Below the pieces are notes generated by a model. That model was not told the DNA's origin, did no database searches, and saw only the letters and a program-made list of their open reading frames with translations. 64,000 nt of DNA from the NCBI GenBank assembly GCA_017478965.1, contig JAFVCV010000013.1, positions 1 through 64,000 of the forward strand, read 5' to 3'. This stretch comes from Ruminococcus sp. Lineage in GTDB: Bacteria > Bacillota > Clostridia > Oscillospirales > Ruminococcaceae. Of the stretch, positions 23,555 to 35,446 are shown one piece after another. Made by a program: the position numbers and the translations under genes. Numbering within the stretch: position 1 is the first letter of the stretch; each line of letters opens with the position of its first letter.

Positions 23555-23739
23555 GGTTGAAAAGTTTTCAACACTATCTTGCCCGAAAATCAAACTTTTC
23601 CCCGACTTTTTAACAGTTTCAACAGAGTTTTCAACACTTTTCTGAAAATTGGGTGTTGATAACTGAACTGTCCAAAAAAGTTCTTGTCATCAAATTTTAA
23701 CCGTTTGTAATAACTGACGGCTCAATAATTTTTTCAACT
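23555..23739. repeat. second cluster of DnaA-box-like nonamers
   Basis: Matches to the local oriC consensus TGTTGAAAA / TTTTCAACA: GGTTGAAAA 23555-23563, TTTTCAACA 23565-23573 (these two form a palindrome), GTTTCAACA 23616-23624, TTTTCAACA 23628-23636, TGTTGATAA 23654-23662 and TTTTCAACT 23731-23739. The stretch is AT-rich and lies upstream of the phosphoribosyltransferase-like gene, 9 kb from the main origin. The rest of the 23353-23941 gap holds only the hairpin above and the promoter below. Confidence 0.7.
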
Positions 23740-31707: not shown

Positions 31708-32817
31708 TTATCCCTCTTTAGGCAGTCTCACCGGCAGCACCAGGAAGGTATACTTATCCCCCTCGCAGGGCACTATCTTCATCGGCAGCAGGCTGCCGCT
31801 CATCTGTAGTTTTATCTTGTCCTCGCCTATGACTTTAAGCGGATCCAGAAGATACCTGCACTTGAAGCCTATCTCTATGGAAGGCCCGGTTATATCCGCA
31901 TTGATCTCGTCAGAGATCTTTCCCTGTGCGGTGGAGCAGTTTATCCTCAGCCGGCCGTTCTCAAAAAAGCACCTTACCGGCGAAGGCGACCTGTCGTTTA
32001 TAAGAAGGATAGCTCTTTCCAGAGTCTCTATAAGCTCCTTCCTGTCAACTATCACGTCGGTCTTTGACTCCGGCGGGATAGCTGTTTTATAGGGGTGGAA
32101 ATCCCCCTCCAGCAGTCTGGAATATACCATATACCCGCCTATCTCAAAGATTATATGTTTTCTCGACGGATATATGTTAACGCTATCCTCGTCGTTCTCT
32201 CCCAGTATCCCCTGTATCTCCGTAAGGGTCTTTGAGGGCACCACGAACTTTATGCTCTCGCTGTATTTCACAGGCTCGTATCTGACTGCCAGTCTGTATC
32301 CGTCGATGGCCGCAAGGTTCAGCTGACCGTTCTCTATATCGAAAAGCTCGCCTTTCAGTATAGGCTTGGTATCGTTTATAGCAACTGCGAACTTGGTCTG
32401 CGCTATCATGCTTTTGAGGACCGGCTGCGGGATACTTATGACAGTCTCGCTGTCCTTATTCGGCAGATCCGGATAGTCTTCAGCGGACACAGCGAACAGA
32501 TTATACTTTGTCACACCTCCGGAAAGGGTTATCTGATAGCTTTCCGAAACATCTATCAGTATATCCTCAGCGGGCATTTTCTTTATCATCTCGGCAAAAA
32601 GCCTTGCATTCACTATGAACTGTCCCTTGTCCTCGCTTTTCACTGCGATGACTGTCCTTATGCCCAGCTCCAGGTCATACCCTGTCAGTTCCAGCAGAGA
32701 ATCAGCCAGGGAAAATCTTATGCCCTCCAGGGACGGCAGCGTAGATCTTTCCGACACCGCCTTCGATACTGTTATGACTGCGTCATACAAAGGCTGTTTT
32801 GAACAGATGAATTTCAT
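31708..32817 (-). CDS. dnaN: DNA polymerase III beta clamp
   Basis: 369 residues in three similar clamp domains; visible landmarks are LPSLEGIRFSL, LTGYDLELGIRT, and the C-terminal MKIVPCEGDKYTFLVLPVRLP. DnaN forms the ring that tethers DNA polymerase and binds many repair and initiation-control partners. AAGGAAG precedes the ATG. The 568-base gap to dnaA is the origin. Confidence 0.97.
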   Translation of the reverse strand: MKFICSKQPLYDAVITVSKAVSERSTLPSLEGIRFSLADSLLELTGYDLELGIRTVIAVKSEDKGQFIVNARLFAEMIKKMPAEDILIDVSESYQITLSGGVTKYNLFAVSAEDYPDLPNKDSETVISIPQPVLKSMIAQTKFAVAINDTKPILKGELFDIENGQLNLAAIDGYRLAVRYEPVKYSESIKFVVPSKTLTEIQGILGENDEDSVNIYPSRKHIIFEIGGYMVYSRLLEGDFHPYKTAIPPESKTDVIVDRKELIETLERAILLINDRSPSPVRCFFENGRLRINCSTAQGKISDEINADITGPSIEIGFKCRYLLDPLKVIGEDKIKLQMSGSLLPMKIVPCEGDKYTFLVLPVRLPKEG

Positions 32818-33385
32818 TATATCTTCCTTTCCGTATACAGATATTTTTTTATCAGGACAGTCCCGGCATTCTCAACACCTCATATCCTGTCCCGCTGTTT
32901 TTATGTTGAACAGAAGAATAGAATACATAAATAAATTCAGTAGTAATAGTAGGGTGTGTTGAAAATGTTGACTTGTCTCTTTTTCCCCTGAAAAGCTCCC
33001 TTTCAGACTAAAAGTTCTCAAACATCTCTCTGTTGAGAAAATGTTGAAGGATCAGGGGGCGTTGAAAAGTTGAAAACCTGTTGGTTTAAAACTAAAAAAC
33101 AGGGACTTTTTTGTTGAAAGTTTTTCCAGATATATACAGCAAACGAGCCGATCCTGTTTTCAACAAATTTTTGTTTAAAGATATTACTGTCTGCCCTGTC
33201 CAGTTTTTCACCATGACCCTGAAAATGGATAACTTCGGGAATAGATCAGGAATTTTTTTCAGATGACGGTCATCAAAACTGTTGAAAACTCTGTTGAAAA
33301 TGTTGATAAGTGCGTGTTTTCAACGTTTTTGAGGCTCTGATCTTCCAAAAAGTGCTGTTTTAGGCCGTTTTTCATCACTGTCCTG
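32818..33385. other. replication origin oriC (dnaA-dnaN gap)
   Basis: About a dozen DnaA-box-like nonamers are present. Perfect TGTTGAAAA is found at 32957, 33280 and 33292, and the reverse form TTTTCAACA at 33157. One-mismatch copies start at 32904, 33031, 33060, 33068, 33112, 33301 and 33317, and a two-mismatch copy at 33042. An AT-rich stretch (32901-32952) and a DnaA-trio tract sit at the dnaN side. Gene direction switches around dnaA-rpmH, as at a bidirectional origin. The classical box TGTGGATAA is absent; the nearest is TGTTGATAA at 33301. Confidence 0.9.
32938..32974 (+). other. DnaA-trio unwinding element next to DnaA boxes
   Basis: CAG-TAG-TAA-TAG-TAG (32938-32952) is followed by GG-TG, then the box TGTTGAAAA (32957-32965) and a second, degenerate box. 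In Bacillus the basal unwinding system has TAG-like trinucleotides in this orientation, separated from DnaA boxes by a short GC-rich step. The AT-rich tract lies on the other side of the trios, as expected for the melted region. Confidence 0.8.
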
Positions 33386-34774
33386 TCACTTTTCCTTCAG
33401 GTTTTTTATTATATCGGCCACAGTATCGCTCATTTCCCTGTTTCTTTCCAGCATCTCCACCACGTCCTTATAGTGTATAGTCATAGTGGAATGGTTCTTG
33501 TTCAGCGCCTTGCCGATGTCCGTATAGGTCATATCCTTGACCTCTTTGAGAACATAGATAGATATTTTCCTTGCGATAGAGATATTTGCATGACGGTGGT
33601 TGGACTTGATGTCTTCAACGCTGACGTCAAAGGCCTCCGCTACCTCGCTCAGCACCCGGTCCACGGTTATCTCCGCCGGCTGGTTCTCTATCATTACCTC
33701 CTTTATGACCCTATGGGCCATGCTTATCGAAGGAGACTCGTTTGTATATGTACTCAGGGCCTTGATCCTCTTTACTGTGCCCTCCAGCTGTCTGATATTG
33801 GTCTTTATCTTGTCGGCTATGAGCCTTAATATATTGTCAGAAAGTTTCAGGTCCAGCAGTTCGGCCTTGCGGCTCACGATCGCCATTCTGGTTTCAAAAT
33901 CCGGTACCTTGACGTCCGCCATGACCCCAAGGCTCAGCCTGGTCCGCACCCTCTCCTGCAATTTGGTTATCCTTGTAGGGGGTATGTCTGAGGTGAGCAC
34001 GATCTGTTTGCCGGAATTGTACAGGTCGTTGAACGTATGGAAAAATTCTTCCTGCATACGGTCCTTGCCGGCGATGGTCTGTATATCGTCCACCAGCAAA
34101 AGATCCGCATTGCGGTATTTCTCGTGGAACTTTACCGTATTCTTATACTCCAGCGCCTTTACCAGCTCGTTTATAAAAGACTCCGCTGTGGTATAGATTA
34201 TCCTCAGGTCCGGGTCGTTCTTCCTGACCTCATGCTCTATGGCCTTCATAAGGTGGGTCTTCCCCAGTCCTGAATCGCCGTAGATTATCAGCGGGTTAAA
34301 GACCTTATTCGGGTCTATCTCTCCGCTGCTGCCGCCCTTGGCGTATTTTCTCGCTACCGCAGTGCAGTAGGCATAGGCCAGCTCGTTCGAGCTGCCCTTG
34401 ATGAAATTCTCAAAGGTCAGGCTGTTTTTCGTATCCTCCGAAAAATCCGCCGGGGCGATCTCTATATCCTTCTCCTGTTTTTCCGGCTCGCTGCTCTGGG
34501 GGCTGCTCACAAGTACCTTGATCTCCACCGGAAAACCCATCACGAATTCAAACGCTTTCCTTATCCTGTCACCGTAGGCGTACATGGCCGTGTTCTTTAT
34601 AAAATCAGTCTCCGCCAGCAGATAGGCCGTATTGTTCTCAAATTTATACGGTTTCAGCTTTTTTATCCATTTATTGTATCCCAGCTCGCTTATCCTGTCG
34701 TTAGGATCATTTGAATTTATCAGCTGATAGCAGTATTTTAGCACCTCTGAAAATACCTCGTTGAACGAATCCAT
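33386..34774 (-). CDS. dnaA: chromosomal replication initiator DnaA
   Basis: 462 residues from the ATG at 34772-34774 (GGAGGT 12 bases upstream; a TTG four codons earlier overlaps the ribosome site). Domain I (1-85), linker, AAA+ domain with Walker A GDSGLGKTH (166-174) and Walker B LLLVDDIQ, then domain IV. In domain IV the motif that reads the DnaA box is LNKNHSTMTIHY where most bacteria have GGRDHTTVIHA: the aspartate equivalent to E. coli D433 is Asn427 and T435 is Ser429, while the histidine and the minor-groove arginine (ARKIS) remain. This fits the altered boxes in oriC. Confidence 0.97.
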   Translation of the reverse strand: MDSFNEVFSEVLKYCYQLINSNDPNDRISELGYNKWIKKLKPYKFENNTAYLLAETDFIKNTAMYAYGDRIRKAFEFVMGFPVEIKVLVSSPQSSEPEKQEKDIEIAPADFSEDTKNSLTFENFIKGSSNELAYAYCTAVARKYAKGGSSGEIDPNKVFNPLIIYGDSGLGKTHLMKAIEHEVRKNDPDLRIIYTTAESFINELVKALEYKNTVKFHEKYRNADLLLVDDIQTIAGKDRMQEEFFHTFNDLYNSGKQIVLTSDIPPTRITKLQERVRTRLSLGVMADVKVPDFETRMAIVSRKAELLDLKLSDNILRLIADKIKTNIRQLEGTVKRIKALSTYTNESPSISMAHRVIKEVMIENQPAEITVDRVLSEVAEAFDVSVEDIKSNHRHANISIARKISIYVLKEVKDMTYTDIGKALNKNHSTMTIHYKDVVEMLERNREMSDTVADIIKNLKEK

Positions 34775-34911
34775 TTTTCTTCTCAAACCTCCGAACTTAT
34801 ACTTCCCGTATCCTTTTCATCTCACTGAACATCTATTCCAAATAATGCTTTTTCTGTATAGTTTTTACAGTAAAAAAGCCACATATTTATCAGCGCACAA
34901 ATATATAGAAT

Positions 34912-34940
34912 ATTATACCACACTTTCAAAAAAATTTCAA
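34912..34940 (-). promoter_or_regulatory. sigma-A promoter for dnaA
   Basis: On the minus strand TTGAAA (34935-34940), a 17-base spacer and TATAAT (34912-34917), about 140 bases from the dnaA start. Confidence 0.8.
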
Positions 34941-35312
34941 GTCCCCTATATATAATAATAGTATTGGCGCAAAACACGGTAAAAGGCTCATTTCTGATAA
35001 AAAAACGGGGGTCTTCCGTCAAAAACGGACACTATATAGGAGGTTTTATTAAAGAAGGCCTACTATATGTAGACAGGCGCTTAAAAATTATTTTATTAAG
35101 TTAACAAAAAATTCAGAAGTTTGCCTCCGGCGGCGGGATTACTGACCAAAAAAATTCTCACCGGACCTGAGGATGGAAGAACAAAGCTTACCTCTGATGC
35201 TGATGACTTTCCCGAAATGAGGTGGGAATAGGGATATCTGGCAAATTTAAGAAAATGGAGCAGAGAAAGAGGCTGAAATTATAAAAAAATTGTGAACAGT
35301 TTGTCTAAGGTC

Positions 35313-35342
35313 TTGACAAATGCCTATGAGATAATATATAAT
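35313..35342 (+). promoter_or_regulatory. sigma-A promoter for rpmH
   Basis: TTGACA (35313-35318), an 18-base spacer and TATAAT (35337-35342); the start codon follows about 105 bases later behind AAGGAGGGTG. Confidence 0.82.
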
Positions 35343-35446
35343 TGTAAATTACAAGGGCTATGCCGACTTGAGTTTTTATTGGCACAGCTTGGATCTATGT
35401 TGTGTAACAGATCTTATATAGAGATTTGATAAGGAGGGTGAAAAGT

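Follow-up and report, generated by a model that had tools for sequence, protein, structure and literature searches.

A shifted DnaA box at a predicted Ruminococcus origin and its probable covariation with residue 433 of DnaA

Introduction

The initiator DnaA and its binding site, the DnaA box, are treated as near-universal, and origin-finding programs use TTATCCACA as their query. The nearest precedents for a changed box are the Epsilonproteobacteria (PMC5043019) and a mollicute motif (PMC3322544). In the former, altered boxes with a TTCAC core are found class-wide alongside a changed fifth helix in domain IV, and the base-specific residues of DnaA are listed there as 399, 423, 432-435 and 438-439. 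In mollicutes and phytoplasmas, TT(T/A)TCAACA has been proposed as a DnaA box, although the review doubts that role. A third point of comparison is the basal unwinding system of Bacillus subtilis, which is described in PMC8287927 as a box, a short spacer and a DnaA-trio lying downstream of dnaA.

Here, we describe the region around dnaA in a 64,000-nucleotide stretch of a Ruminococcus genome (GCA_017478965.1, contig JAFVCV010000013.1), referred to as the window, and compare it with relatives. Residues of DnaA carry E. coli numbers, and A6 and C6 denote the boxes TTWTCAACA and TTWTCCACA after the base at position 6. As in the Epsilonproteobacteria, an altered box core occurs here together with changes in the domain IV helix, and a rare C-to-A at position 6 is tolerated there; in contrast, their boxes have a fixed T5, keep C6 and are backed by footprints, whereas here A6 is the change and it is known from sequence, and they keep D433, with residues 435, 438 and 439 being blamed instead (PMC5043019). 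The mollicute motif is of the identical nonamer class, a likeness at the level of the box (PMC3322544). The B. subtilis layout recurs in the window, with the differences that the box core is TTTTCAACA and that the arrangement has been read here from the DNA (PMC8287927). A search of the open literature, outside which most subscription papers lie, returned nothing on Ruminococcus boxes or on covariation of residue 433 with the box.

A predicted DnaA origin with a shifted box

The intergenic region that separates dnaA from an ORF which we take, from the gene order, to be dnaN (Table 1) contains four exact copies of TTTTCAACA and 14 sites with at most one mismatch, while 1000 dinucleotide shuffles of the region gave at most one exact copy and five sites with one mismatch or fewer, which rules out chance or low complexity as the source of the cluster. 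Across the window TTWTCAACA occurs 8 times against 0.92 expected, a count reached in 0 of 100 shuffles. The classical pattern TTWTNCACA also has 8 sites in the window, a number reached in 5 of 100 shuffles, but none lies in 32818-33385 or in 34787-35446 upstream of dnaA, so that by this pattern the region is not a classical origin. Over this region the GC skew turns from negative to positive, with values of -0.176 at 28-32 kb, -0.026 at 32-36 kb and +0.204 at 36-40 kb, and one box is followed by a short spacer and at least three trios in the order TTTTCAACA-CACC-CTACTATTACTACTG, the arrangement seen in basal unwinding systems.

We consider it rather probable, as part of the wider explanation developed below, that this is an ordinary DnaA origin, with a box cluster, a trio-adjacent box and a position between dnaA and dnaN, in which the box has shifted from TTWTCCACA to TTWTCAACA; we infer from the sequence that DnaA would bind boxes of the latter type. 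The initial annotation of this DNA had reported an absence of classical boxes and about a dozen altered nonamers, four of them perfect, and the counts above bear this out. It had also described two base changes in the box, of which the change of C6 to A is real; position 3 is unchanged in consensus terms, and since T is allowed there the difference from TTWTNCACA is a single base.

Table 1. Features at and near the predicted origin, in window coordinates
Feature	Position	Strand	Basis
Second cluster, three exact TTWTCAACA within 98 bp	23565..23662	.	Flanked by spoVG and an ORF lacking a name; 9.3 kb off the origin
ORF adjoining the origin, presumably dnaN	31708..32817	-	ORF; gene order
dnaA-dnaN intergenic region, 568 bp, predicted origin	32818..33385	.	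Box cluster; GC skew
DnaA-trio-like array CTACTATTACTACTG	32938..32952	-	4-bp spacer CACC at 32953-32956
Predicted DnaA box TTTTCAACA adjoining the DnaA-trio	32957..32965	-	Exact match
Predicted DnaA box TTTTCAACA	33157..33165	+	Exact match
Predicted DnaA box TTTTCAACA	33280..33288	-	Exact match
Predicted DnaA box TTTTCAACA	33292..33300	-	Exact match
Predicted DnaA box TTATCAACA	33301..33309	-	Pattern match
dnaA, 462 aa, chromosomal replication initiator	33386..34774	-	Complete ORF; Pfam Bac_DnaA 1.8e-57, Bac_DnaA_C 3.5e-16
NKNHSTM codons (turn and start of recognition helix)	33482..33502	-	Translation and AlphaFold domain IV model

The recognition helix of the window DnaA

The protein encoded by dnaA carries both the AAA+ domain III (PF00308) and the helix-turn-helix domain IV (PF08299) above cut-off, as befits a DnaA, and is the single match to Bac_DnaA_C in an assembly of 2.69 Mb that is 92.8% complete. 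Its nearest sequence in the PDB is B. subtilis DnaA (8btg, 1.6e-77); its identity is 72% to the closest named record, from a Ruminococcus MAG, and 66% to R. bicirculans, of which we place the source genome as a relative. The C-terminus reads IGKALNKNHSTMTIHY and, in agreement with the initial annotation, which gives GRDHTTV as the motif of nearly all bacteria, the complete gene encodes NKNHSTM in domain IV, with Asn (codon 33494-33496) matching D433 of E. coli. An AlphaFold model of a 110-residue piece covering domain IV (mean pLDDT 90, helices at 65-72 and 76-92) retains the helix-turn-helix and places this Asn at residue 75, one before the recognition helix. Compared with relatives, the protein also lacks one residue directly before R432 and is altered at residues 437-439.

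The same box with Asp and Asn at residue 433

The combination is consistent within the genus. A DnaA match was present in 25 of 29 genus genomes, the other four having none, and every one of the 25 shows KNHST with M or I as the next residue; within 1.1 kb beyond dnaA each has one to five TTWTCAACA, while TTWTCCACA is absent from 23 and occurs once in two, and the box is therefore a stable property. This concordance is what would be expected if, as had first been claimed, D433N and T435S evolved to match the changed box and gave the lineage its own initiator code, and a wider comparison points in the same direction, with A6 ahead in 39 of 43 N433 genomes and in 101 of 216 D433 genomes among those with at least four A6 or C6 sites.

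Relatives that retain Asp speak against it. In a tree built without domain IV, the window's clade forms one branch of 27 rows (support 100/100) that includes four D433 members (L067, L154, L158 and L160), and these share with the N433 members both the deletion and HSTM. Their A6:C6 counts are 29:2 (4 genomes) against 202:24 for N433 (35 genomes; Fisher p 0.75), and C6 boxes stand at background in both, at 0.9- and 1.5-fold relative to shuffles for D433 and N433, respectively. Base 6 of the trio-adjacent box, taken from the 152 of 334 loci in which a DnaA-trio was located, is A in 27/27 N433 and 4/4 D433 genomes of the clade, compared with 12 A, 11 C and 1 T in R. flavefaciens-type genomes and 3 A and 9 C in the phylum sample. 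N433 is thus unnecessary for the A6 box, as the D433 members of the clade show the same one. By hand count on the domain-IV-free tree, the history of N433 in the clade takes three changes if D is ancestral and four if N is. Three N433 relatives (L159, L162 and L164) have boxes shifted on to TWTAAACA, with 5, 7 and 5 sites, respectively.

The R. flavefaciens-type genomes, which have GRDHST and hence D433, lead to the same conclusion, many of them having the boxes of the window, with TTWTCAACA:TTWTCCACA at 10:0, 12:0, 11:1 and 9:0 in L079, L089, L092 and L123. Across 59 such genomes A6 was found 583 times against 78.3 expected (7.4-fold) and C6 189 times against 45.2 (4.2-fold); in the phylum sample, the 29 genomes with D433 gave 3.2-fold for A6 and 21.7-fold for C6 relative to shuffles. 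A6 boxes are accordingly not confined to N433 relatives in either the family or the clade comparison, and the converse combination also exists, N433 occurring with C6 in L329, L330 and L418, which carry TTATGCACA-type boxes. A second D433 lineage with A6 drift is seen in another order, where L353, L354, L355 and L358 have A6:C6 counts upstream of dnaA of 6:2, 10:2, 7:2 and 10:1.

A simple pairing of D433N with A6 is thereby rejected on the shuffle enrichment, the clade tree and the clade A6:C6 counts. The observation that the initial annotation had itself named as fatal to its claim, relatives with the standard Asp motif carrying the same boxes, is what these genomes provide. T435S is no better placed as a partner change and is likewise rejected: S435 is ordinary in the family (GRDHSTIVY is the commonest motif string, in 96 of 320, and D433 relatives often have HST in place of HTT) and, once phylogeny is corrected for, shows no clear effect (t 1.15). 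Since the A6 shift spans much of the family, an initiator code private to this lineage is too strong a description, and we regard the matched-pair account as very improbable.

Probable covariation of residue 433 with the box core across Clostridia

For the wider sample, domain IV of DnaA was collected together with the neighbouring DNA at family, order, class and phylum level, from part of the matched genomes and among the matches listed. We left out L277, L280 and L441, in which no ORF for dnaA was picked up, L340, whose frame was misassigned, and duplicates with identical last 200 residues, and the regressions were run without the S433 row L281 and the two T433 rows L428 and L455. Among the 335 non-identical proteins sampled, residue 433 is D in 271, N in 53, H in 9 and S in 1, with one misread, and the tree of the later pooled set implies 11 parsimony changes between D and N. 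Sites were counted by pattern rather than by binding, in genomes with at least four sites for scoring A6 against C6 or at least five for scoring CC at bases 5-6, and the regression tree includes domain IV.

When A6 was scored against C6, the effect of N433 in the phylogenetic regression was weak (t 2.27), ranking twelfth of 334 tests; T435 went with C6 (t -2.91), and the GC content of the region correlated with A6 over C6 (t -3.29). This last result would suit AT-rich mutation pressure setting the letters of the box under a tolerant DnaA of unchanged specificity, but such pressure should also have produced T6, which is unenriched in every D433 or N433 group (0.8- to 1.5-fold), and A5 or T5, whereas the genus keeps C5 (CA in 89 of 128 sites). 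Adding GC as a covariate moreover leaves the effect of N433 on CC unchanged (t -3.48). AT drift alone is rejected on these three grounds, and we judge the tolerant-DnaA account improbable.

Other cores occur in N433 lineages outside the window's clade (TTTTGAACA in L192 and TTTTAAACA in L175), and a stronger association emerged for loss of CC. In the first set N433 gave t -3.46, with residue 433 ranking first and second of 328 tests. This trait had been picked after the cores of L329 and L330 were seen, and the test was therefore written down beforehand and further genomes were fetched, amounting to 51 order genomes, 9 class genomes and 27 phylum loci among the matches listed (about 60 order and 20 class genomes had been planned), taken in descending order of their match to an N433 profile. 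The 58 new genomes with enough sites, five of them N433, gave t -2.32 (lambda 0), a weak check because three of the five (L411, L418 and L460) come from genera in which N433 was already known; the remaining two, L415 and L433, are similar to L265, which belongs to the same family. The dominant cores of the new genomes were CA in 2, AA in 1, GC in 1 and CC in 1 for N433, and CC in 28 of 52 for D433.

With all genomes pooled (n=316), N433 (t -3.41) was the third strongest of 349 tests against CC loss, after a gap at 431 (-3.68) and D433 (3.47), and CC leads among the box cores in 2 of 48 N433, 117 of 261 D433 and 3 of 7 H433 genomes. Without the window's clade (n=280), N433 ranked first of 324 tests (t -4.52); the effect was -4.09 on 150 representatives and ranged from -3.26 to -4.97 when the seven N433 lineages were dropped one by one. 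Supported branches yielded few independent pairs (6 pairs), with means of 1.9 changing the same way, 0.8 the opposite way and 3.3 showing no difference; this preponderance of pairs without a difference is a further point against the matched-pair account, and it weighs on the wider association too. The covariation proposed in the initial annotation finds partial support across lineages, as an association between N433 and CC loss that is strong in the pooled set and weak in the new genomes; inside the clade, D433 and N433 members show no difference.

The pooled ranking raises the question of whether another change in the helix, namely the residue lost at 431, K432 or residues 437-439, sets the core while N433 rides along. 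In the full set the gap at 431 scores highest, K432 and R432 reach -3.09 and 3.08, and the deletion and HSTM are common to both D433 and N433 members of the clade, all as this account would have it. Without that clade, however, N433 surpasses both the gap (-3.60) and K432 (-3.27), and A6 predominates in N433 genomes lacking the deletion (A6:C6 about 26-29:0 for L175, L327, L351, L341 and L275; 3:2 for L342 and L345). We consider a helix change other than N433 a rather unlikely driver.

In our reading, residue 433 is probably among the determinants of specificity and shifts together with the core of the box. A bolder proposal, which we hold tentatively and with more doubt than conviction, is that it acts as an evolvable switch for the centre of the box, with Asp (and His) going with CC and Asn, perhaps Thr, with CA, GA, AA or GC, thrown repeatedly in Clostridia, such that a universal initiator code would have been locally rewritten within one order. 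Thr433 is found in L428 and L455 (KTHSTVKH), whose few sites are mostly non-CC and include TTTTGAACA.

Box clusters outside the origin

The 2.69-Mb genome contains TTWTCAACA 109 times, against 23 for the reversed pattern, and TTWTCCACA 99 times, against 34. Among the matches listed, TTWTCAACA clusters at the origin, at 23.6 kb of the window (contig C24) and on contig C44, consistent with the enrichment at the origin for which a genome-wide count had been advised; when 109 sites were placed at random 2000 times, a cluster of three in 200 bp arose in 9 of 2000. For TTWTCCACA in the same genome, inspection by eye found no comparable cluster. The clusters elsewhere in the genome would be further evidence that this box is used. 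The one at 23.6 kb, beside an ORF without a Pfam match, is possibly a DnaA-titrating or regulatory cluster; at least three TWTCAACA in the 150 bp preceding this ORF were seen in 7 of the 25 genus genomes parsed (2 of 27 loci were not parsed), and it is not a genus-wide conserved feature. On C44 (8768-8908; L382:3269-3409), an ORF for a SpoU-type rRNA methylase is preceded by five exact TTTTCAACA within 141 bp.

A proposed history

The explanation that we favour, with somewhat better than even confidence, is that a drifted box serves an ordinary DnaA origin, that the recognition helix has been remodelled in the window's clade, and that residue 433 and the core covary more widely. An ancestral D433 protein would have tolerated A6, since enrichment of A6 extends to the phylum sample, and boxes may then have drifted from C6 to A6 in the Ruminococcus branch, in ancestors with an ordinary protein; as the drift is also seen in D433 relatives, it most likely preceded, or was independent of, D433N. 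The helix of the clade would later have been remodelled through loss of the residue before R432, the appearance of M437, T438 and I439, and, in several branches, N433, with C6 boxes presumably falling to background level there. Elsewhere in Clostridia, too, bases 5-6 of the box would tend to move together with residue 433, N433 lineages rarely keeping CC and using CA, GA, AA or GC.

We infer that loss of the acidic side chain lets N433 tolerate, or makes it prefer, a core other than CC. Structures cited in PMC8235120 have D433 and L438 contacting box base 7, which is A in TTWTCAACA and TTWTCCACA alike, and this speaks against the simplest form of the idea, in which N433 would free the CC core, the association being at bases 5-6.

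Implications

The base-contacting residues of DnaA have been called conserved among all Firmicutes (PMC7561715), and the genomes described here are exceptions to that statement. They also illustrate how a tempting but wrong inference from a single genome is corrected by comparison with relatives. Natural sister pairs make a residue-to-base reading of the DnaA box directly testable, a natural test pair being the sister genera of one family that have N433 with TTATGCACA-type boxes (L329, L330 and L418) and D433 with TTTTCCACA (L344 and L457). For the organisms themselves, the shift means that a search with TTATCCACA would miss the boxes of a large group of bacteria from the gut.
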